A DNA stretch of 57,587 nucleotides from Planctomycetota bacterium (GTDB lineage: Bacteria > Planctomycetota > UBA1135 > GCA-002686595): contig DUBE01000013.1 of the NCBI GenBank assembly GCA_012960475.1, positions 1,666 through 59,252 on the forward strand, written 5' to 3'. Numbering within the stretch: position 1 is the first letter of the stretch; every line of letters begins with the position of its first letter. The notes beneath the pieces were generated by a model. It was given only the letters and a program-made list of their open reading frames with translations, was not told where the DNA came from and made no database searches. The translations under genes and the position numbers were made by a program. Of this stretch, positions 12,011 to 23,168 are shown one piece after another.

Positions 12011-12303
12011 CTTTCTTGGGTTGAAGGGAAAACTGAGGAATCAAGAGTGCGCCAGACGCACCCGGGATCCATTGGGACCCACCAGGATGGCTGAAAGTTC
12101 CCTTCTGTGGCACATCAAGTCGCTGTTCGCCCCAGCCCGGACATGAACTGGACCCTTCCGGGGGCGCTGGCTCGCTTGACTCTAAAGATCCACCCCCGCC
12201 CCCCCGCCGTAATCATGGACCCGCCTCTGGACCCGGACTCAACCCCCAACCGCTCTACAGGGGGCAGGAATGCGGTTTTCCAATGCCCAAGGGGGCTAGT
12301 ACC
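12011..12303. other. Divergent intergenic region between the S8 protease and formate dehydrogenase genes
   Basis: About 290 bases without a supported gene. It must hold the promoters of both flanking units. I could not fix a convincing -35/-10 pair. The stretch includes a C-rich run near 12192-12208 and ends in AAGGGGG, 9 bases before the ATG at 12304, which I take as the ribosome-binding site of the dehydrogenase unit. Confidence 0.5.
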
Positions 12304-13893
12304 ATGTGCTCCGTGTCTACCCCCACCGATCCCCACAGCACCATTCCAGACCGCCTGGCCAGCGCTGGAGGTTTGAAGAAAGGGGTCGCCCGTGGGCTAT
12401 CCAGAGACACGGGCCTGCACGAGGCCGACATCTATGGGGTCGGCAGCTTCTATCACCTGCTTGCTCGGCCCGAGAAACGGGTACGGGTTTGTGGTGGACT
12501 CTCTTGCCAGTTGGCTGGCTCACGAGAAATCTTGAGCGCCTGCCAAGCCGCGGGACTGCCCACAGAAGAAATCTCATGCCTCGCAGCCTGCGATCGACCA
12601 CCGGCTGTGTTGCGGGACCGACGCACGTTGCCCATGGTCACCATCCAAGATGCTGAACGCAGCGGCGGCAAGGTGGAGGATCTTTGCTCCAACGGAAGCG
12701 AATCTGTTTGGTGTGGAACCATTGGGCCCCAGGATGCGGCTGCAGAAACACTGTGCTTGAACCTATCCGCTGAGCCCGACTGGAGTGGATCAGCCTTCAA
12801 GGCAGCGGGCACCATGGGATCCTCAGCCCTGTTCGACTTGATCGAAGAGAGCGGACTCCAGGGGCGTGGCGGGGCAGGATTTCCAGCACACATCAAGTGG
12901 CGCGCAGTTGCCGATCAAGCAGAACAAGAACGCTACATCGTGCTCAATGCAGATGAAGGCGAACCTGGGACCTTCAAGGACCGAGAAATTCTGTTGCGCC
13001 GCCCGGATCTGGTCCTGGAGGGTTTAGCGATCGCTGCAGCCGCCACGGGCTCAAGCGAGGTCTACCTCTATCTGCGCGGGGAATTCGAAGTACCCGGAGG
13101 GGTATTGGCTGAAGCAATTCAAGCGACCACCAAAGCCGGACGCTTCCCAGGGATCACCTTTCACATGCATGCGGGCCAAGGCGCCTACATCTGCGGAGAA
13201 GAAACTGCGATGCTGGAAGCTCTTGAAGGCAAGCGCGGCATGCCTCGCCTCAAGCCTCCTTTCCCGGTAGAAGTTGGCCTGTGGGGCAAGCCGACCTTGA
13301 TCCACAACGTCGAGACCATTGCCTGCATCCCCGGGATCGTTCTACAGGGCGGAACCTGGTTCAAAGATCTTGGCAGAACCGAGGCCGGGTCCAAGCTCTA
13401 TTGCATCAGCGGCCATGTCCAGAACCCAGGCACCTACGAACTGCCCCTTGGTGTCTCCCTCGACGAGTTGGTGGCAGCTGCGGGTGGATATGTGGGCACC
13501 CTCAAGGCTTTTTCACCGGGAGGAGCCAGTTCTGGATTCCTGCCCGCCAGCGAACGGGGCCGCGCATTGGACTTCAAGGGCCTGGGGGCGATCGGCTCCA
13601 TGCTCGGGTCCGCAGGCGTAGTGGTCTTGAATGACACGATCAACATGCGCTGGGCAGCAGAAGAACAACTGCGCTTCTTCGAAGAGGAAAGCTGCGGCCA
13701 ATGTGCACCCTGCCGCATCGGCACTCACTACCTCCATGCGGCGGTCAAGAGAGGCGAAGAAAAATCTCTGGGCCTGACCCATGTGGCGGATGTGGCCTGG
13801 CAAATGAATGAGGGTTCGATTTGCGGCCTGGGTCAAGCGGCGGCCCTGCCATTGACCAGCGCGCTCAAGTACTTCCCTGAGGATTTTGCATGA
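12304..13893 (+). CDS. fdhB: NAD-dependent formate dehydrogenase beta subunit (NuoE-NuoF fusion)
   Basis: I choose the ATG at 12304, which has AAGGGGG 9 bases upstream, over the ATG at 12283. The 529-residue protein joins two complex-I-like parts. Residues about 1-120 are NuoE-like, with a [2Fe-2S] set C-X4-C (VCGGLSC) and C-X3-C (CLAAC). The rest is NuoF-like: FMN/NADH site GRGGAGFPAHIKW and NADEGEPGTFKDRE, CGEETAMLEALEGKRGMPR, an SLBB region, and the [4Fe-4S] ligands CGQCAPC...SICGLG. This fused diaphorase is the arrangement known from the two-subunit Methylobacterium FDH1. It passes electrons between the molybdenum subunit and NAD. The stop overlaps the start of the catalytic subunit (ATGA at 13890). 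Confidence 0.9.
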   Translation: MCSVSTPTDPHSTIPDRLASAGGLKKGVARGLSRDTGLHEADIYGVGSFYHLLARPEKRVRVCGGLSCQLAGSREILSACQAAGLPTEEISCLAACDRPPAVLRDRRTLPMVTIQDAERSGGKVEDLCSNGSESVWCGTIGPQDAAAETLCLNLSAEPDWSGSAFKAAGTMGSSALFDLIEESGLQGRGGAGFPAHIKWRAVADQAEQERYIVLNADEGEPGTFKDREILLRRPDLVLEGLAIAAAATGSSEVYLYLRGEFEVPGGVLAEAIQATTKAGRFPGITFHMHAGQGAYICGEETAMLEALEGKRGMPRLKPPFPVEVGLWGKPTLIHNVETIACIPGIVLQGGTWFKDLGRTEAGSKLYCISGHVQNPGTYELPLGVSLDELVAAAGGYVGTLKAFSPGGASSGFLPASERGRALDFKGLGAIGSMLGSAGVVVLNDTINMRWAAEEQLRFFEEESCGQCAPCRIGTHYLHAAVKRGEEKSLGLTHVADVAWQMNEGSICGLGQAAALPLTSALKYFPEDFA

Positions 13894-16694
13894 GTGCCAT
13901 GAAGCAGACACTCGTGCTCGATGGACGCAAGATCGAGCTGCAACAGGGGGACACCATTCTTGATGCAGCCTCCCGGACGAACACCTCGATTCCCACCCTT
14001 TGCCATGACCCGCGGCTCAAACCCGTAGGCGCTTGCCGCACCTGCCTGATCGAAGTCGAAGGCTCACGCCGCTTGCTCCCAGCCTGTGCCACGCCCGCCA
14101 CAGAGGGCATGGTCATCCACACCAAGAACGAGCGGGTGGACCGTCACCGAAGAACCCTGCTGGGGCTTTACTTGACCGATCACAACCCGGATCGGCATTA
14201 CGGCCTGGGAGGTGCCCCCAACCAACTCGTCGCCATGGCACACGAAGTGGGGGCCCCCACGGACTGGGGTCAATTGCCCTCAAAGAGAAAGGCCAGCAGC
14301 GAGGACGACAACCCCTACATCCTGTTCGATCCTGAACAGTGCATCGCCTGCGCTCGCTGCACGCGCTACTGTGATGAAGTGGAATCGGTCAGCGCGATCA
14401 CCTTGGCGGGTCGTGGAAGCGAGACGACCATTTCCACCAACGACGGACTGTCCCTGCTCGATACCACTTGCGAGATGTGTGGAGGCTGCATCGACACCTG
14501 CCCTACGGGGGCCATGACCGAGCGCAAGGCCGCCGAAATGCAGGCGCCACCGGAGCGGGATCTGAAGCAGGTCCGCAGCACCTGCAACTTCTGCGGAGTC
14601 GGCTGTCAATTGGACCTGCATGTTGACGAAGCAGCCAATGATGGGCGAGGCCGGATCATCAAAGTCACCAGTCCTCCAGTAGGTACCACTACCAATGACG
14701 GCAATCTCTGCGTCAAAGGGCGCTTTGCCTATGACTTCGTCGACCACAATGAACGCCTGACAACACCCTTGGTCCGGGACAAAGCGGGTGTCTTGCAGCC
14801 CGCCACATGGGAAGAGGCCCTGGCTGCCACGAGCCTGGGGCTTGCGGGAGTCTCCGAACGCCACGGCAAGAATTCCCTCGCATTCGTCAGTTCTTCGCGC
14901 TGCACAGTGGAGGAAAACTATCTGGTCCAAAAGCTCGCCCGCCAGGGCTATGGAACCAACAATGTGCACCAGTGTGCCGCAACATGACACGCCCCCACTG
15001 TGGCCGGTCTGGTCGCAACTTTTGGCGCAGGTGCCATGACAAATTCGATCCGAGAAATCCGTGAAGCGGACTTCTTGCTTGTGATCGGCAGCAACACCAG
15101 CGAAGCCCACCCGATCATCGCGATGGAAATGAAGCGCGCCGTGCGTCGGGGAGCAACCCTGGTAGTTGTGGATCCCCGTGCAGTCTGGATGACCACTATC
15201 GCCGAACACCACCTGCAGATCAAACCGGGAAGCGATGTGTGGCTCCTGAATTCAATGGCCCAGGTGATTATCGCTGAGGGTCTGGTGGCAGAAGAGTTTG
15301 TTGCGGAACAGACCGAGAACTTCGAGGCGGTCCAAGCTGCGGTGAAGGACTACACTCCGGAAAAAGCAGAAGCATTCACCGGCGTCGCTCCAGATCTACT
15401 GCGCAAGATAGCGCGCCAGTATGCGCAAACCGCCAAGGCTGGTATCTACTACACCTTGGGCATCACCGAACACAGTCATGGCACGGACAATGTCTATGCC
15501 CTCGCGAATCTGGTGCTGATGACAGGGCATCTGGGGCAACGCGCCAGTGGAATGAATCCTCTAAGGGGGCAAAACAACGTACAAGGAGCCAACGATGCTG
15601 GTGCAACGCCGACGTACTATCCGGGCTACCAGCGCGTGGACGATCCAGAAGTCCAAGCACGATATGAAAGTGCCTGGAGCTGCGAATTGGATCCAAAACC
15701 AGGACTCAACCTCAATGAAATGATGCTGACCATGGGAGAGGGCATCAAAGGCATTTTTGTGATGGGCGAAGACATTGTACTTTCGGAGCCCAACGCAAAC
15801 CACCTGGAAGAAGCCTTGGCCGGAGTCGAGTTCATTGCCATTCAGGAACCCTTCCCCAACGAGACCATGCGCTTTGCCAATGTGGTCTTGCCCAGCACTG
15901 TTTTTGCAGAAAAGGACGGGGTTTTCACCAACTCCGAGCGACGGGTGCAACGCGTGCGCCAAGCGGTAAAACCCCCGGGAGAGGCACGCCAGGACTGGCG
16001 CATCCTCTGCGAGATAGCCCGCGCCGCAGGCATCAACTGGGACTACGACAGCCCTGCAGAAATCTACGACGAGATGGCTTCCCTGGCCCCCAATTTCAGT
16101 GGTATCAGCCACAATCGCCTGGATGACGTGCAAGCTGATGGCATGACCGGCATCCAGTGGCCCTGCCCCACTAGTGATCACCCGGGGACGGTCTACCTCC
16201 ACGGTGACGGAGTCATGCGGGGCAAGGGACTTTTCCAAGCCGTCAGCTACCGGCCCCCCATGGAGGTGCCCGACGAGGACTATGGCTTGTTCCTGTCCAC
16301 GGGGCGCACCCTCTACCACTACAACGCGGCAACGCAGACCCGACGCGAAACCGGGCCCGTGGCCAAGCACCCCGAAGCATTTGTGGAGATTCATCCACGC
16401 GACGCCCAGCAACGGGGCATCGAAGCGGGCGACCGTGTGCGCGTCAGCAGCCGACGTGGTCACATCGATGTAGTCGCCATCGTCTCACGCCAAGTACGTC
16501 CCGGCTGCATTTGGACACCCCTGCACTATGCGGAAGCGCGCGCCAACCTCCTGACCAATGACGAAGGGGACCCGGTCACCGGCACGGCCGAATTCAAAGT
16601 CTGCGCAGCCGAAGTCACACGCCTGGGCGAAGGGAAAAAACTAGCGACGACCTTCCGCGGCAACTACTACAGCACTACCGGGCCAGGGGCCTGA
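13890..16694 (+). CDS. fdhA: Selenocysteine-containing formate dehydrogenase alpha subunit (molybdenum/tungsten, NAD-linked)
   Basis: A single 934-residue reading, with TGA 14985-14987 read as Sec366. Before it: a NuoG-like [2Fe-2S] domain (CHDPRLKPVGACRTC), two [4Fe-4S] motifs (CIACARCTRYC, CEMCGGCIDTCP), then the [4Fe-4S]-bearing molybdopterin domain (CNFCGVGC). The TGA lies in NNVHQCAAT-U-HAPTVAGL, exactly where Escherichia coli FdhF has Sec140 (CARV-U-HGPSVAGL). The same frame continues without a break as a normal catalytic domain (GAGAMTNSI, LGITEHSHGTDNVYAL, GMNPLRGQNNVQGA) and the C-terminal cofactor lobe. The molybdenum or tungsten is predicted to be bound by Sec. The role is formate oxidation with NAD, or CO2 reduction in reverse. 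If TGA is treated as a stop, two fragments result, neither of them a plausible enzyme. Confidence 0.93.
14985..15017 (+). promoter_or_regulatory. UGA Sec codon plus predicted bacterial SECIS hairpin in fdhA
   Basis: After the UGA, a stem of about 7 bp including two G-U pairs (bases 14999-15005 with 15011-15017) presents the loop GGUCU at 15006-15010. The loop begins 18 bases after the UGA, within the 16-37 base range described for bacterial SECIS elements, and has G in its first two positions. GGUCU is also the SelB-contacting loop of E. coli fdhF. An outer CGCC/GGCG pair may extend the structure. Confidence 0.82.
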
Positions 16695-16766: not shown

Positions 16767-17798
16767 TCAGCGCTTGAGACTCTCGAAGCCTTGCCGCAAT
16801 GCATCGCTGCTCTGACCCTGGCTCTGCAGGCTCCACTTGGGAGTATCCGCTTCGGCGTGCCACAACAGACCAAAGCCCAGGGCGCCAGCCACCATGGAAA
16901 GCACAATGGGAGCCAGCAGATGACGGGTGCGTTGATAGAGAACACAGGCAGCCAACTCGGTCAGAAACATGATCAAGGCCGCCAGCGGAAAGGTGATCAA
17001 GACCAGAGCCGGAATCGCGCTGGAAAGCAGGGCCCCCAGACACGGGGAGCCCGCGTCCATGCAGCGCTGTTGAAGATCTCGGAAAAACAACTGCTGAGCC
17101 AAGGGCACCAAGAAAGTGCCCAGCAGGCAGAAGAGAATCAAAACGACGGTGGAATCTGCCTCGATGAATTCCACGATCCAAGGAACGGTTTGGGGATAGA
17201 GGCCCCACTGCTGGACCAGACTGACAAGCCAACCAAGCATGGCAGCGACGAGACCGAGGCCGACGCCCCATGCCAGGGCACGGCCGAAAGATCCAAGACC
17301 TGGGGATTTCTCCCGCCGAGACCAGGAAAAGACACCAAACCCCAGAAAGCCGATCATCGCGACCAGCCAGCCGCGCCAGATCCAGACCCTTGCAGGCAAC
17401 AGGCGCCCGGCTTCACTCCAAGACATTCCGGAACTGGTGATACCAAACTGATTCCTTGAGTAGCCCAGCTTCCCCCAGGGTGGAGCGGTCGCCGCCCCCA
17501 GATGTTTGAAGGTCAAGATGACCTTCGTTTTCTCTTCGGTCACTTCCCGCTCGAGCCAGATGCGGCCGCGCGCATGTTTTTTCGCCCAGGCTTTCAGGGC
17601 CTGATCGCTGGGAGGAATAAACTGGGACGAACTCTCACCCTCCGCTTCAAGGGTGTATTGAGACCAGGGGATCTTCTTCTCCTCGAAGGACTCCTTGCTC
17701 TTGCGATACTGGGGGGCGATGAAGAACCAAACGGCGGTGCAGATGACCATGAACTGGACCAGCCAAGTCAACAACGCTCTAGGAGGACGCCAGGACAT
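16767..17798 (-). CDS. Polytopic membrane protein, CPBP (CAAX-protease-like) with degenerate motif
   Basis: This 343-residue protein has one N-terminal transmembrane helix, an extracytoplasmic segment of about 115 residues (residues 30-150) and then about seven hydrophobic helices. The stretch LAQQLFFRDLQQR at about residues 240-252 has the shape of the EE-X3-R motif of CPBP intramembrane proteases (typically EELFFRG), but both glutamates are Gln. A later HEXXH-like or H-X3-N/D motif is not obvious. If the assignment holds, it is a catalytically dead relative. It starts 41 bases after the ABC ATPase stop on the same strand, so it may be the fourth gene of that operon. It could equally be an unrelated membrane protein. 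Confidence 0.5.
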   Translation of the reverse strand: MSWRPPRALLTWLVQFMVICTAVWFFIAPQYRKSKESFEEKKIPWSQYTLEAEGESSSQFIPPSDQALKAWAKKHARGRIWLEREVTEEKTKVILTFKHLGAATAPPWGKLGYSRNQFGITSSGMSWSEAGRLLPARVWIWRGWLVAMIGFLGFGVFSWSRREKSPGLGSFGRALAWGVGLGLVAAMLGWLVSLVQQWGLYPQTVPWIVEFIEADSTVVLILFCLLGTFLVPLAQQLFFRDLQQRCMDAGSPCLGALLSSAIPALVLITFPLAALIMFLTELAACVLYQRTRHLLAPIVLSMVAGALGFGLLWHAEADTPKWSLQSQGQSSDALRQGFESLKR

Positions 17799-17839: not shown

Positions 17840-18598
17840 CTAGACCTGATGACTGACCCCCAAGAGATCATACAGCCGGTTCTTGATCTGACCATACTCG
17901 GGGCTGCCCAGGTCACGGGGGTGTTCCATGGGCACGGGCACAATTTCACGAATGCAGCCTGGCCGGTCAGTGAAGACCACGATTCTCTGGGCGAGTTGAA
18001 TCGACTCGTCCACATCATGGGTCACAAACAGGATCGTCTTGCCGCTCTCGTGCCAGATGCGAATCAGCTCCGAGCGCAAAGAGAGACGCGTCAGAGAATC
18101 GAGGGCTCCGAAAGGCTCGTCCATGAAAATTACATCGGGATCCACAGCGAGTGCACGGGCCACTTCCACGCGCTGCTTCATACCACCTGACAACTCCTGG
18201 GGATAGGTGCTTTCGAATCCCTTGAGGCCCACCAACTCGATCACCTGGGACACGATGCGCTGCTGCTCGTCCTTGGAAAGCTGTCGCAAGCCCAGAGCCA
18301 CATTGTCCCAAACGCTGGCCCAGGGGAAGATGCCGTACTCCTGGAAGACGAACACCCGTCGGGAGTCAGGACCCAGGACCGACTCTCCATCTATCAGGAC
18401 GCGTCCACTTGTGGGCCGTTCAAAACCCCCGGCTATGTTGAGCAAAGTACTCTTGCCGCAACCGGAAGGACCAAGCAGGCAAACGAATTCTCCTTGGGCC
18501 ACGGACAAATCAATGTCGCGCAGCACCTCCAGATCTTCGCCTTTCCGCTGAAAGAGCTTCGTGACCTTTTCGAAGACAACTTTTTGCTGGGTGGTCAT
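17840..18598 (-). CDS. ABC transporter ATP-binding protein (SsuB/TauB/NrtD-like)
   Basis: I start at the ATG at 18598-18596, which overlaps the permease stop as ATGA; this gives 252 residues, normal for the family. All ATPase motifs are present: Walker A LLGPSGCGKSTLLN, Q-loop in FVFQEYGIFPW, signature LSGGMKQRVEVARAL, Walker B VIFMDEPFGALD, and the switch His in ILFVTHDVDE. Closest in type to the ATPases of nitrate, sulfonate, taurine and bicarbonate importers. It energises import through the adjacent permease and the Sec-containing binding protein. Confidence 0.93.
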   Translation of the reverse strand: MTTQQKVVFEKVTKLFQRKGEDLEVLRDIDLSVAQGEFVCLLGPSGCGKSTLLNIAGGFERPTSGRVLIDGESVLGPDSRRVFVFQEYGIFPWASVWDNVALGLRQLSKDEQQRIVSQVIELVGLKGFESTYPQELSGGMKQRVEVARALAVDPDVIFMDEPFGALDSLTRLSLRSELIRIWHESGKTILFVTHDVDESIQLAQRIVVFTDRPGCIREIVPVPMEHPRDLGSPEYGQIKNRLYDLLGVSHQV

Positions 18599-19422
18599 CG
18601 CGTCGCATACCCCCATCGCACTTCGTCAAAGCGTTCCAATCGTCGAATCAACAGATCGAGCACGATGCCGATCATGCCGATCACCAACATGGTGGCCACC
18701 ACCAAGTCATAGCGACTGCCCGCATTGCGAGCGTCATTGATCAAGTACCCAAGACCTGAGTCCATGCCCACCATCTCAGCCGCAACGATCACCAGCCAGG
18801 CCACACCCAGCGCAATGCGCAAGCTGGTGATGATCTGGGGCAGAGCCGCAGGCAAGACCACGCGCCGAAAGAGTTCCAACCCGCTCAAACCAAAATTCAT
18901 GGCGGAACGCTGGTGCACCAAACTGATATTGCGCACGGCAGCCATGGTGCCCACGGTGATCGGAAAGAAAGACGAGAGAAAGATCAGAAAGATCCCAGCG
19001 CCATCACCGATGCCAAACCACAGGATCGCAATCGGAATCCAGGCAATGGGCGAGATCGGACGCAGACCCTGGATGATTGGATTGAGCGCGCGGAATGTGC
19101 GCGTGGACCAACCCACGACAAGACCCAGGGGAATGCCCACGGCTACCGCCAGAACAAAACCCCAGGTGACTCTGAACAAGCTGGCGGCAATGTCGCCCCA
19201 CAAGCGATTGCTCTCAATCAATTCCAAGAGCCCTGCCCAAGTCTGGCCCGGTGTGGGGAAAATGCGCGATTGGGTCCAACGGCAAGCCAACTCCCAGAGC
19301 ACAACCAAGAAACAACTGATCGCCATGGGCAGCAGCACCGACTGCTGGCGTGCGCTCTGCCAACGGGCAGTCCCGACCACAGCCAAGGCCATGAGAGAAA
19401 CATACAGAGGCCAATAGTTCAT
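18595..19422 (-). CDS. ABC transporter permease (SsuC/TauC/NrtB-like)
   Basis: The 275-residue protein has about six to seven hydrophobic helices and the typical BPD_transp_1 features: FPTPGQTWAGLLEL near the start, LRPISPIAWIPIAILWFG, and the EAA-type coupling loop AMNFGLSGLELFRRVVLPAALP. Its start overlaps the stop of the binding-protein gene, and its stop overlaps the ATPase start, both as ATGA, so the three are one translationally coupled unit. It forms the membrane channel of the importer, presumably as a homodimer. The ligand is unknown. Confidence 0.92.
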   Translation of the reverse strand: MNYWPLYVSLMALAVVGTARWQSARQQSVLLPMAISCFLVVLWELACRWTQSRIFPTPGQTWAGLLELIESNRLWGDIAASLFRVTWGFVLAVAVGIPLGLVVGWSTRTFRALNPIIQGLRPISPIAWIPIAILWFGIGDGAGIFLIFLSSFFPITVGTMAAVRNISLVHQRSAMNFGLSGLELFRRVVLPAALPQIITSLRIALGVAWLVIVAAEMVGMDSGLGYLINDARNAGSRYDLVVATMLVIGMIGIVLDLLIRRLERFDEVRWGYATR

Positions 19423-20498
19423 CGTGCTCTCCCTTGGTCCCAGCCTGCAGGTCTGGGCAGGAAGTCCAGATCCCAGGAAGTCCCCTCCAGTCCGGCTGCG
19501 AAGCTGTCATCGGCGTATTCCTCAAACGCTACCCGCCGGGAAAGTACGCCGATCTCAAAAGCGAGTTCCATAATCTCGTCGAACTCATGTTTGAGGGGCG
19601 TCAGACGCGTATAGCGCACACGATCCGGCGGTTTTGAAAGCACATACTTGAGCAATTCCGGCGGCTGAAAATAATAGCGCTTGCCCGCGACTTCCGCCGC
19701 GTCCATGCGATGCGCAATGTCTCCGTCGAGCCACTGGCCCGACTTGGCGATGCCCGCAACCAATTCTCGAATCAACTCGGGCTGCTCATCAATCAAGTCC
19801 TGGCGTACGACCAGCACGCAAGATATGAAGTCCTCCCAAAGATCGCTGGCCTGATAGAGCACGCGCCCAAAACCATCCACTTCCGCCTTGGCGGCAAAAG
19901 GCTCGCCCACGATGTAGGCATCGATGGCGCCAGCCAGCAAGGCGGTGGGATGTTCCGGGGGAGGAACCTCACGCAGGTCTATCGAGTCCTCGGCCATGCC
20001 CCACTCGCGCATCATGCGGTGCATGAGGATATTCTGATTCGCATAGCGACTGGGGATAGCCACGGTCTTACCCGCCAGATCCCCAAAATCGTAGATGTTG
20101 GATTCCTTGCCCACGATAATCGCGGTTCCATCGCGATGACCCAGATAAACCACCTTGATTGGTACACCGTCCGCCACCAACTGCATTGCCATGGGTGCCA
20201 GGATGAACACGCCTCCCACCTCTTTCGAAATCAAAGCCTCTTTGACCGTCGGCCAGTCGGTGAACTTCCGCGAATGAAAGAGGGTGCCCTTGCTGGAATT
20301 TTCTGTCACCCAACTGGTGACGGGGCAGGTCAAATGTCATGTCACGGGCAAGAAACCAACCAGCAGTTCGGCTCTCTGTTGACCGCGCATAACTGCGATG
20401 CGGTCGGAAACCGCCCCCCAGCCAATGTTGAGCTGAATGTGCATGACCGAGATCAAGAGGGACCAGACAAAAACCCCCAATGCAACTTTGAGTTTCAT
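19419..20498 (-). CDS. Predicted selenocysteine-containing ABC transporter substrate-binding protein (SsuA/NrtA-like)
   Basis: The full frame runs from the ATG at 20498-20496 (GAGGT 5 bases upstream) to 19419, with one in-frame TGA at 20337-20339 read as Sec54; 359 residues. Residues 5-28 form a signal peptide or membrane anchor (VALGVFVWSLLISVM). The first strand is LLVGFLPVT, then Sec54-His-Leu-Thr-Cys58-Pro, then a normal NMT1/SsuA-type body: GVFILAPMAMQL, VYLGHRDGTA, GKTVAIPSRYANQN, MMREWGM, YIVGEPFAAKAEVDG. A start after the TGA (TTG at 20333) would remove the signal and first strand and has no ribosome-binding site. In SsuA/NrtA/TauA proteins the loop after strand 1 lines the ligand pocket, so Sec54 is predicted to meet the ligand. 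From memory, homologues have Cys at this position; this needs an alignment. Alternative: nonsense mutation or sequencing error. Confidence 0.8.
20305..20339 (-). promoter_or_regulatory. UGA Sec codon plus predicted SECIS hairpin in the binding-protein gene
   Basis: On the minus strand the UGA (20339-20337) is followed by 15 bases and then a perfect 6-bp stem GUCACC/GGUGAC (20321-20316 with 20310-20305) closing the loop AGUUG. The loop starts 21 bases after the UGA and has G in the first two positions. Both meet the published rules for bacterial SECIS elements (loop distance 16-37 bases, G in first two loop bases). Confidence 0.7.
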
Positions 20499-20758: not shown

Positions 20759-21997
20759 CTACCAGGCGCTATCGAGAATCACAGCCCAACTAGATGAGGA
20801 GTGATATACCTCTGACCCCCTCATATGGCCTTGCACGTGCAGGACTCCGTGGCCAAAGGCAGGCAGATCCCGCAAACGGTATTCAACTTGCAAGCTGCCG
20901 GTTGCATCGAGCATACCAACGAACCGCATTGGGAGGAGGGACGAGCCCCCGGAAGTAGTGATCAACTGAGGTCCGAACATGGGCCGGAAGCGATACCCTG
21001 GACTTGTGCCAATCATCAGGTAGGCCTGATCCCCTGGCGCTCCCCTGAAATTCAGCTGCAAGCCCTGTTCATCATCAACCAGCCTGTTGACGCGCAGGAA
21101 GCGCGCCAAACCGGGAAAGTTCGTCCCATATAAATTCCCATCTTGACCATCTTGGCCGACGTTGGCTGGATCCGGGCTCCAGCCGCCAGTGCCGGGCAAG
21201 TAGATGTTGTCCAGGAACCAGGAGTTGGCTGAGCCACCGGAGAAACCCGAGCCCCCATCACCCCCATAGCCGTACTGACCGGTCCAGAAGTCGACGTCCC
21301 AATCCGCTACCCCGCCGTGGCCCCCCCGCAGGGTACAGCCGGAGAGAAAAACGTGGCTGCCCCAGGAGGTGACACCGTTGCCACCGTTATAGCCACTTGC
21401 ACCTGGATCGTCCTCGGTGCCGCCGGAGGTCCCGGTGAAGATCGAAGAAAAAAGTGAAACATGACTGCCGTTGATCTCGAGCCCGTCGACTCCCCATGAC
21501 ACAAAGTTAGACCCGCCCCCCGTACAGGAACAATTCACCATCATCACATCTTCGCAGCTTGCAACGAGAGCACCCGGAAAGCCATTCCACGGGTAGCCAC
21601 CCGACTCATTGCCACCGACGAAGTTTGAGTTACGAATACGGACCGAACCCTGACAGTCGCTCACAACCAGGGCGATCCCGTCAGACCCGGAGGCGCCAAC
21701 GCCGCTGATCAAGACCGAACGGCTGGCAGCGAGGTTCATCACCCGATAGGTGCCACTGACCACGACACCTCCCCCAGGCAGGGCAGCCACCAAGGTCAGA
21801 GCCTCGTCATCAATCCAAAAGGCCTGATAGCTGCCTGGCCAGATGCGCACCACATCACCGTCCTGCGCAGCGGCTACTGCGGGCTGAATCTCGGTGAAGT
21901 CCGGCTGGGGGCCACGCACATTGAAGACATCAGCCGAAGCAAGAGGGCTGAGGAAGGCAAGAGCGGCAAGGGCGAGTTGGTATTGGCGAGGCTGCAT
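20759..21997 (-). CDS. Secreted right-handed beta-helix (PbH1-type) surface protein
   Basis: I start at the ATG at 21997-21995, preceded by a strong AGGAGG 5 bases upstream; the 412-residue product opens with a signal peptide (YQLALAALAFLSPLASA). Residues about 25-75 are the typical start of secreted beta-helix proteins (FTEIQPAVAAAQDGDVVRIWPGSY). The middle has repeated rungs of about 25 residues rich in Gly, Ser and Asn (VISDCQGS-like, NSNFVGGNESGG, LSGCTLRGGHGG), then a C-terminal beta domain (GDQAYLMIGTSPG). No catalytic residues can be assigned. It is likely a cell-surface or matrix protein, or a carbohydrate-binding helix. It follows the LeuB-like gene by about 100 bases with its own putative promoter region. 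Confidence 0.78.
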   Translation of the reverse strand: MQPRQYQLALAALAFLSPLASADVFNVRGPQPDFTEIQPAVAAAQDGDVVRIWPGSYQAFWIDDEALTLVAALPGGGVVVSGTYRVMNLAASRSVLISGVGASGSDGIALVVSDCQGSVRIRNSNFVGGNESGGYPWNGFPGALVASCEDVMMVNCSCTGGGSNFVSWGVDGLEINGSHVSLFSSIFTGTSGGTEDDPGASGYNGGNGVTSWGSHVFLSGCTLRGGHGGVADWDVDFWTGQYGYGGDGGSGFSGGSANSWFLDNIYLPGTGGWSPDPANVGQDGQDGNLYGTNFPGLARFLRVNRLVDDEQGLQLNFRGAPGDQAYLMIGTSPGYRFRPMFGPQLITTSGGSSLLPMRFVGMLDATGSLQVEYRLRDLPAFGHGVLHVQGHMRGSEVYHSSSSWAVILDSAW

Positions 21998-22045
21998 TGT
22001 TCCTCCTAGTCTAGGCAGAAGAAGGGAATGCAGCATAGGGCGCCT

Positions 22046-22062
22046 GTTTACTTTTTGTTTAC
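22046..22062. repeat. Tandem GTTTAC direct repeat, one helical turn apart
   Basis: Two GTTTAC copies (22046-22051 and 22057-22062) are separated by TTTTT, giving 11-base periodicity. This AT-rich island lies about 50-65 bases upstream of the beta-helix gene start, in a promoter position. It could be a dimer-binding operator or an UP-like element. Confidence 0.4.
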
Positions 22063-22097
22063 ACACGCCTGGGCTACACCAGAACGACCCAGAGGGG

Positions 22098-23168
22098 TCA
22101 GGCAGGTGTCCCCAGCCGCCGCACTTCAGCGACAACCAACTCGCCCACCTCGTTGGTGGGGTGGTCGGCGGCTCTGACGCCCTTCAGCCTGCTGGACGTG
22201 AAGAGGTCAATGACCGTGGTCTCAATGGCGTTTGAGGCCTCTTGCTCGCCCAGGAAATCCAACATCATCGATCCGGCCAGGATTGCGGCAATGGGGCTGG
22301 CGGTGTTCTTGCCGGCGGCTTCGGGGAACGACCCGTGAACCGGTTCGAAGAGACTGACCTGACCAGGGTGGATGTTGGCGGAAGCGGCGATTCCAAGACC
22401 GCCTTGGATCATGGCACCCAGGTCCGTGATGATGTCGCCGAAGAGGTTGCTGGTGACGGCCACGTCGTAGTCCTCGGGGGTGTCCACCATGCGCATGCAA
22501 GCGGCGTCAATGTAATCGTGACCAGTACTGATGTCTGGGTACTCGGCAGCGACTAAGGCGAAAACGCGCATCCACAGGTCCTGGGCGCGCAGGGCATTGG
22601 CCTTGTCGATCAGTGTCACATGTTTACGGCCACCGCGAGAACGAGCCAATTCAAAAGCATGGCGCACGGCGCGCTCGACTCCAGCACGGGTCCAGACCAT
22701 GGTCTGGGTGGCAACTTCCAGGTCTTGCCCCTTATGCGCGAAACCGTGCATGCCGGTGTAGGCGCCCTCGGTATTCTCGCGGACAATGACCATATCCACA
22801 TCGGCGGGACCCTTGCCTTTGAGAGGGCAAAGTCGCTCGTCGTAGAGCTTGATCGGGCGAATGTTCAGGTACAGGTCCAGGTCAATGCGAGCCCTGGCAA
22901 TAATCCCAAACTCCATCTTGCCCACTTCGATACGCGGGTCACCGATGGCGCCAAGGTAAATGGCTCCCATACCCTTGACCTCCTCGAAGGCCGCATCGGG
23001 CCAGATCTCGCCCGTGTCCAAGAAGTGCTGGCTGCTGAAGGGGTACGCTGTCTTGTTCAGCTTGAATCCAAAAACCTCGGCCGCCGCATCCAATACCTTG
23101 AACGCCTCAGCGGTCACTTCGGGTCCAATGCCGTCGCCGGGAATAATCGCAATGTCGTGGGTCGCCAT
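22098..23168 (-). CDS. Isocitrate/isopropylmalate-family dehydrogenase (LeuB-like)
   Basis: This 356-residue beta-decarboxylating dehydrogenase begins with IAIIPGDGIGPEV. The substrate region reads LDLYLNIRPIKLY, followed by VDMVIVRENTEGAYTGMHG, the catalytic Lys in LIDKANALR, and the Asp pair in TSNLFGDIITDLGAM. The nucleotide region is FEPVHGSFPEAAGKN. The arginine-containing specificity helix differs from classical LeuB (no FANLRP), so the substrate may be 3-isopropylmalate, isocitrate, tartrate or a related 2-hydroxyacid. It follows the fused LeuD-LeuC gene by 20 bases, which is the order expected of a leucine-type (or homoisocitrate-type) pathway. I leave the symbol blank for this reason. 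Confidence 0.85.
   Translation of the reverse strand: MATHDIAIIPGDGIGPEVTAEAFKVLDAAAEVFGFKLNKTAYPFSSQHFLDTGEIWPDAAFEEVKGMGAIYLGAIGDPRIEVGKMEFGIIARARIDLDLYLNIRPIKLYDERLCPLKGKGPADVDMVIVRENTEGAYTGMHGFAHKGQDLEVATQTMVWTRAGVERAVRHAFELARSRGGRKHVTLIDKANALRAQDLWMRVFALVAAEYPDISTGHDYIDAACMRMVDTPEDYDVAVTSNLFGDIITDLGAMIQGGLGIAASANIHPGQVSLFEPVHGSFPEAAGKNTASPIAAILAGSMMLDFLGEQEASNAIETTVIDLFTSSRLKGVRAADHPTNEVGELVVAEVRRLGTPA

Follow-up and report, generated by a model that had tools for sequence, protein, structure and literature searches.

Could an ATP-binding cassette (ABC) importer rely on selenocysteine (Sec) to take hold of its ligand? This question is raised by a minus-strand gene at positions 19419–20498 of the window, i.e., the whole 57,587-nucleotide stretch of DNA from a Planctomycetota bacterium that was analyzed here (all positions are window coordinates unless a contig or locus is named). 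The gene, a predicted selenoprotein gene, encodes an ABC substrate-binding protein of the NMT1_2/NrtA–SsuA fold, and its only interruption is an in-frame TGA at 20337–20339, the predicted Sec codon for residue 54; the terminal stop is also a TGA. The original prediction, made from the DNA letters alone, described a continuous minus-strand frame, and the 359-residue read-through product agrees with it: a hydrophobic N-terminal helix is followed by the strand-1 motif LLVGFLPVT, the TGA, HLTCPVT, and a complete NMT1_2/NrtA–SsuA body. Cys58 (codon at 20325–20327, minus strand) is the partner residue in the resulting U-x-x-x-C motif. From the comparisons below, we consider it very likely that the UGA at codon 54 is decoded as Sec, and we assign a probability of about 0.6 to the reading that Sec54, together with Cys58 at the cleft of a three-gene importer, binds a thiophilic ligand that is to be imported, most probably a soft metal ion or a metal complex.

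Codon 54 Alternates between TGA and Cysteine

Related loci were found with two peptide patterns that do not include residue 54; 80 of 94 were kept and the other 14 were left out. With the window, these make 81 sequences, the two gene copies in one locus (L057) being counted once. Codon 54 is TGA in 44 of them, TGC in 29, and TGT in 8. The alternation with Cys that the original prediction expected of a Sec site is thus found in 80 of 80 related loci, and a relative with neither Cys nor TGA, which would have counted against Sec, does not occur among them. By the phylum of the sequence record, the TGA/Cys counts are 36/14 in Planctomycetota, 4/1 in Acidobacteriota, and 3/0 in records without a phylum; Verrucomicrobiota (8), Myxococcota (7), Bacteroidota (4), Ignavibacteriota (2), and Thermodesulfobacteriota (1) have Cys only. 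One of the TGA loci, L016, is on the complete chromosome of Planctomycetes bacterium Pla163 (CP036290.1), which judging by its title is not a metagenome-assembled genome and which also gave a SelA match; L041 and L071 are among the Cys loci. A separate search of 294 Planctomycetota genomes gave matches in 88, mostly weak general relatives. A relative with 46% identity or more was found in 19 further genomes (the window's own excluded), and all of these, some of which may be of the same species as those among the 80 loci, carry either TGA (13) or Cys (6). Furthermore, a tree of 68 members built without column 54, by a quick method and with some long branches, requires at least nine Sec/Cys swaps, all nine of them forced by starred branches.

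The codons upstream of the TGA also behave as coding sequence. In the 22 of the 43 TGA loci that were compared with the window (22 being the number compared), the 53 codons before the TGA are free of stops and the N-termini are similar, and the differences from the window number 480, 262, and 635 at codon positions 1, 2, and 3, which is a coding pattern.

A Conserved Hairpin Follows the TGA

A compact hairpin resembling a selenocysteine insertion sequence (SECIS) lies on the minus strand at 20305–20321 (GTCACC-AGTTG-GGTGAC), with a 6-bp stem, an AGUUG loop at 20311–20315, and 21 nt between the UGA and the loop. The original prediction had singled out this hairpin, and its conservation bears that out. 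The comparison covered 46 TGA sequences with the motif CPVTSW, or 41 distinct 48-mers, window included. All six GTCACC/GGTGAC pairs form in 41 of the 41, as does the AGTTG loop, and in 4 of them one stem pair is swapped from C-G to G-C on both sides. The serine codon in the loop is AGT in all 46 sequences, whereas AGT accounts for 25 of 489 serine codons (5%) in the later part of these genes. Nine Cys sequences with CPVT[SN]W have AGC (5), AAC (3), or AGT (1) at this codon. A stem of at least 5 bp on an AGTTG loop arises in 2% of synonymous shuffles versus 33 of 33 real TGA/CPVTSW sequences. Judged from these alignments, the signal resides in the codon of the loop and in how constant the stem is; therefore, in the TGA sequences, the DNA, and not the protein alone, is under constraint, the loop showing this best. 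Because TGA or Cys occupies the site in 80 of 80 loci, the upstream codons are open and coding-like, and the stem is rare in shuffles, the TGA frame is not a matter of chance.

The compact hairpin is missing in 11 TGA sequences with other motifs. In 69-nt folds, 7 of these 11 (L042, L044, L061, L069, L074, L075, and L079, several of them close kin) show a longer interrupted stem downstream of the TGA with z ≤ −1.5, and the mean z is about −1.65 for the 11 versus +0.09 for 34 Cys sequences. A longer stem is therefore a likely feature of most of the 11, and two SECIS architectures may serve one protein family.

The Genome Encodes the Selenium Machinery

The genes for which the original prediction proposed to check the genome, selA, selB, selC, and selD, were all found in the window's own genome: selA (C66:4175–5266), selD with an internal TGA (C66:5443–6390), selC (C66:9279–9372, 73.7 bits), and selB (C5:5128–7017, 348.5 bits). 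The first three share one contig (C66:4175–9372), and selB is on contig C5. The locus and its genome together have what is expected of a bacterial selenoprotein, namely a UGA aligned with a conserved Cys, a SECIS-like hairpin, and selA/selB/selC/selD.

SelA was found for 37 of 43 TGA loci versus 18 of 37 Cys loci (Fisher p = 5.6 × 10⁻⁴, uncorrected for relatedness; two of the loci, L051 and L053, belong to one genome). The Cys54 loci divide about evenly between genomes that have a SelA match and genomes that lack one, so Cys can apparently serve the same purpose. A selB match over the cut-off is present in 190 of the 294 Planctomycetota genomes. Among the 19 further genomes, all 13 with TGA have a selB match at E ≤ 1.4 × 10⁻⁸⁵; of the six with Cys, four reach E ≤ 2.5 × 10⁻⁹⁰ and two (G259 and G270) only about 10⁻⁴⁷.

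The Residue Pair and the Structure Model

Cys58 is present in 67 of 68 aligned members and Cys227 in 62 of 68. Cys227 also occurs in 16 of 18 distant relatives and SaoX-like proteins; on this distribution, Cys227 is older than the Sec/Cys54–Cys58 pair. Column 54 of the 18, with placings that depend on one alignment, holds Asp in 5 (L110–L113 and L117), Thr in 2 (L116 and L119), Cys in 3 (L114, L115, and L118), Leu or Ile in 7 (L124–L130), and a gap in the remaining one (L123). Cys at column 58 occurs in 3 of the 18 (L128–L130), with Ile at column 54 there; these three are SaoX-like proteins. Because none of the 18 has both Cys54 and Cys58, it is the pair, not a single residue, that marks the family.

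The structure model was made from 68 longer rows and replaced an earlier one made from 10 mostly truncated sequences (predicted local distance difference test, pLDDT, 69.9). It places Sec54 in the loop that follows strand 1 and Cys58 where helix 1 begins, so that the pair is predicted to lie at the ligand cleft, and it predicts that the protein is anchored in the membrane through the hydrophobic N-terminal helix (residues 2–25; 20424–20495, minus strand). The fold neighbors of the model are NrtA, CmpA, TauA, and SsuA, to whose structures it has 14–19% identity, and the closest structure is 3un6 from Staphylococcus aureus, whose title names zinc.

The Importer Operon

The binding protein matches PF13379 (NMT1_2) with 114.2 bits (curated cut-off 24.7). 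As the original prediction proposed, it belongs to an ABC importer: genes for a permease (18595–19422; PF00528, 78.1 bits), whose gene shares 4 bp with the end of the binding-protein gene, and an ATPase (17840–18616; PF00005, 111 bits) follow downstream on the same minus strand, giving a three-gene operon with the binding protein first. Of the 80 loci, 75 have a permease gene and 74 an ATPase gene close to the binding-protein gene and on its strand. The misses are at contig ends in L036, L043, L069, and L085, and, for the ATPase only, in L058; L053 has neither nearby, and its genome carries another copy, L051, with both genes beside it. The permease and ATPase genes lie upstream of the binding-protein gene in four Bacteroidota loci, P0110 is a fusion of binding protein and permease, and L024 has a 660-residue frame. 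L057 carries two tandem copies of the binding-protein gene (at ~2.9 kb and ~4.15 kb), each of which has TGA as its codon 54.

A Proposed Function and the Evidence against It

How might such a pair work? SelB with Sec-tRNA would recognize the hairpin right after the UGA and insert Sec, as the sel genes and the constraint on the hairpin suggest. The binding protein would then be held on the outer face of the membrane by its predicted N-terminal helix, with the selenol of Sec54 and the thiol of Cys58, four residues apart, facing the cleft between the two lobes, and the conserved His55, His121, Glu199, and Cys227 might complete the site. In ABC importers, the closed binding protein docks on the permease, and ATP hydrolysis powers import; here, closure of the cleft on the ligand would lead to docking on the permease and import driven by ATP hydrolysis. 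We infer that Sec54 and Cys58 act as ligands and that the cargo is a soft metal or metal complex. The ATPase and permease score best against SaoA and SaoP, parts of a system that a paper title and passages of a review tie to organometals or metal resistance. A metal is favored on indirect grounds: 3un6 is zinc-bound according to its title, its Ni-CODH-linked relatives have been proposed to import metals, and SaoA and SaoP are near, though only slightly so for the ATPase.

Several observations weigh against this reading. Regarding the decoding, six TGA loci (L014, L017, L027, L033, L039, and L061) gave no SelA match, in draft genomes of unestimated completeness. Much the same stem can form in some Cys sequences, with AGCTG or AACTG as the loop and up to 7 of 7 pairs in L043, and the 45 nt that follow the TGA have an unexceptional folding energy in the compact type (mean z −0.70; z ≤ −1.5 in 7 of 33), the 45 nt after codon 54 in three Cys/CPVTSW sequences having a mean z of −0.96. 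Four of the 11 TGA sequences with other motifs (L049, L057, L064, and L067) fold weakly, without a clear hairpin. Regarding the pair, three distant relatives have Cys54 without Cys58 and three others Cys58 without Cys54, and the confidence of the model, the C-terminus aside, is lowest around the motif (pLDDT 71 for residues 51–60). Regarding the cargo, the nearest characterized members of the fold bind nitrate, bicarbonate, taurine, or sulfonates, and the lead of SaoA over the nitrate ATPase family is tiny (246 versus 244 bits). Gene maps of the 80 loci and Pfam scans of 20 chosen neighbors, used to obtain a clue to the ligand, revealed no widely shared neighbor gene, the next-largest real clusters being in 5 of 80 loci, and an Rfam scan of 50 of the 80 loci found no riboswitch beside the operon and nothing in the window.

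Alternative Explanations

Could the pair serve as a switch rather than a hook? The same selenoprotein importer might carry an ordinary NrtA/SsuA-type anion (nitrate, bicarbonate, or sulfonate), with a Sec54/Cys58 selenenylsulfide opening, closing, or locking the cleft according to redox state. The fold neighbors NrtA, CmpA, TauA, and SsuA would suit such a cargo, the near-invariant Cys58 in the U-x-x-x-C pairing would suit such a bond, and uncharacterized selenoproteins are, according to passages of PMC13188914, mostly thought to be redox proteins. On the other hand, the UxxxC spacing departs from UxxC/CxxU, which is the usual one, the 80-locus maps with their 20 scanned neighbors show no redox partner gene that is often found next to the operon, and the SsuA and TauA profiles stay below their cut-offs. 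We regard the switch as less likely than metal capture.

Less probable still is covalent capture, in which Sec54 would be the nucleophile and would form a bond with an organic ligand that is electrophilic or contains sulfur. It draws on two further fold neighbors, DszB, whose structure title names a C27S mutant, and MqnD, whose title names a modified Cys11. Model residues 41/42 align with DszB residues 18/19, and model residue 44 with MqnD residue 3; from these alignment starts, if the first strand is free of gaps, the two Cys residues would fall near residues 50–52. In both enzymes, which share this fold, that Cys may, we presume, be a nucleophile.

There is very little room for the TGA being a true stop, with a 304-residue protein starting from a TTG just after it or the gene decaying. 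Gene callers do place the start there or later, and P0002 begins two residues behind the TGA. Against this stand the 53 open upstream codons with coding-like change in 22 TGA relatives, the Cys at position 54 in 37 of 81 forms, the codon constraint in the hairpin loop, and the loss of the anchor and strand 1 from the short form; by eye, no ribosome-binding site precedes the downstream TTG. Reassignment of TGA to another residue (such as Trp) or a sequencing error is the least credible account, since TGA is also the stop codon of this gene, the in-frame TGA recurs in separate assemblies belonging to two named phyla, and the alternative among the 81 sequences is always Cys; no evidence in support of it was found.

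Annotation and Neighboring Genes

A homologue search scored 7,996 candidates, of which 6,226 were significant, and start sites were taken from 120 listed ones. Of these, 119 start after residue 54, and P0005 alone includes it, as Cys. The absence of the anchor and first strand from 119 of 120 listed close relatives is a systematic annotation error, and because gene callers remove at least 55 residues from the front, the family would be hidden.

The importer seems to be a stand-alone system, as 5 of the 80 loci is the most that any other real cluster reaches. Clusters c2–c4 lie antisense over the binding-protein, permease, and ATPase genes. Among the clusters present in 5 loci are an EF-hand/deiodinase-like one and, within a single lineage, those of homoserine dehydrogenase and phosphoglycerate mutase. 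Two clusters are present in 4 loci each: c9, and c10, an FG-GAP/UnbV-repeat protein whose loci bear the names of three phyla. Rfam matches in the scanned loci were limited to L045, which has a c-di-AMP element ~3 kb upstream, and L041, which has a group II intron. In the window, a 458-residue frame upstream of the importer (20759–22135, minus strand) has no Pfam match and is found in 3 of 80 loci, and a CAAX-protease-like membrane protein directly after the ATPase (16767–17798, minus strand; PF02517, 31.3 bits) is found in 1 of 80.

Formate dehydrogenase, which adjoins the importer in the window, was found in 2 of 80 loci, both nearest relatives (3 by cluster). Its alpha-subunit gene (13890–16694, plus strand; TIGR01591, 757.5 bits) has a TGA at 14985–14987 (residue 366) in a UHxP motif and is likely to be a second selenoprotein gene of the window; a gene for a NuoE/NuoF-like protein (12283–13893) precedes it. 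An EF-hand protein and a deiodinase-like piece (PF00837), possibly another selenoprotein gene, lie just upstream of the binding-protein gene in L069 (L069:2033–3556) and have kin in L074 and L079; SelA matches are present in the genomes concerned.

Comparison with Known Systems

SaoX is said to have been presented as an ABC-binding selenoprotein by Haft and Gwadz in 2023. The table of 119 selenoprotein families and subfamilies in PMC13188914 (2026) has three ABC-binding entries, SaoX (UxP), SaoB (CUxxT), and BtuF (CxxU), and the present UGA-containing binding-protein family is not among the entries seen there. Nor is it mentioned in the literature listings screened or in passages of PMC13188914, PMC9312934, PMC12013277, PMC4807772, PMC2398784, PMC5029168, and PMC1794560; Haft and Gwadz 2023, Haft and Tolstoy 2025, the supplementary candidates of PMC4807772, and a groundwater survey of metagenome-assembled genomes cited in PMC13188914 could still hold it. 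Among the matches listed, the binding protein reached no NCBIfam cut-off: it scored 58.4 bits against SaoX (NF040735; cut-off 300), 102.6 against SsuA (TIGR01728; 163.5), and 43.8 against TauA (TIGR01729; 304.25), and it gave no match to the SaoB profile (NF040727) at E 0.1. On these sequence comparisons, we probably have an unrecorded selenoprotein family, a variant of Sec-bearing ABC binding proteins. More tentatively, and at somewhat below even odds, we propose a widespread, unrecorded class of selenium-dependent nutrient import by a stand-alone three-gene system distinct from Sao and BtuF. A Sec–Cys pair in the mouth of its binding protein would hook a soft metal, or a complex of one, with high affinity, and the class would have been hidden by the cut front ends.

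With NrtA and CmpA (nitrate and bicarbonate) and SsuA and TauA (sulfonates), the protein shares the fold and the ABC-importer role. The zinc-bound 3un6 has His at column 54 and Leu at column 58, where the window protein has Sec and Cys. NitT/TauT binding proteins linked to Clade B Ni-CODH are reported to be homologous to 3un6, and metal import has been proposed for them (PMC6344411); a link to the present family would be through 3un6, and the passages of that paper do not mention selenium. According to PMC13188914, no specific high-affinity selenium transport system is known in prokaryotes. A Sec at an importer's binding cleft, swapped with Cys at least nine times on the tree, would let one ask what selenium buys in ligand capture.

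SaoB and BtuF likewise have Sec in an ABC substrate-binding protein, BtuF being set apart by its motif description only. SaoX, with Sec in some members (PMC13188914), is of the same NMT1-like type, and the original statement that no selenoprotein was known to have been described in this family has to be corrected: SaoX is a distant homologue, although its Sec site would align elsewhere than residue 54. It lacks the Sec/Cys54–Cys58 motif and has Cys-Cys at the columns of Ser226–Cys227. Its UxP was placed by means of a single Cys-type SaoX, L123 (479.9 bits), which alone in 297 genomes passes the SaoX cut-off. The sole Cys-x-Pro of L123, equated with the UxP of the review table, lines up with Gly198–Glu199–Pro200 of the window protein and not with residue 54. 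If the Cys-x-Pro of L123 is the UxP site, Sec therefore entered related binding proteins at two different places.
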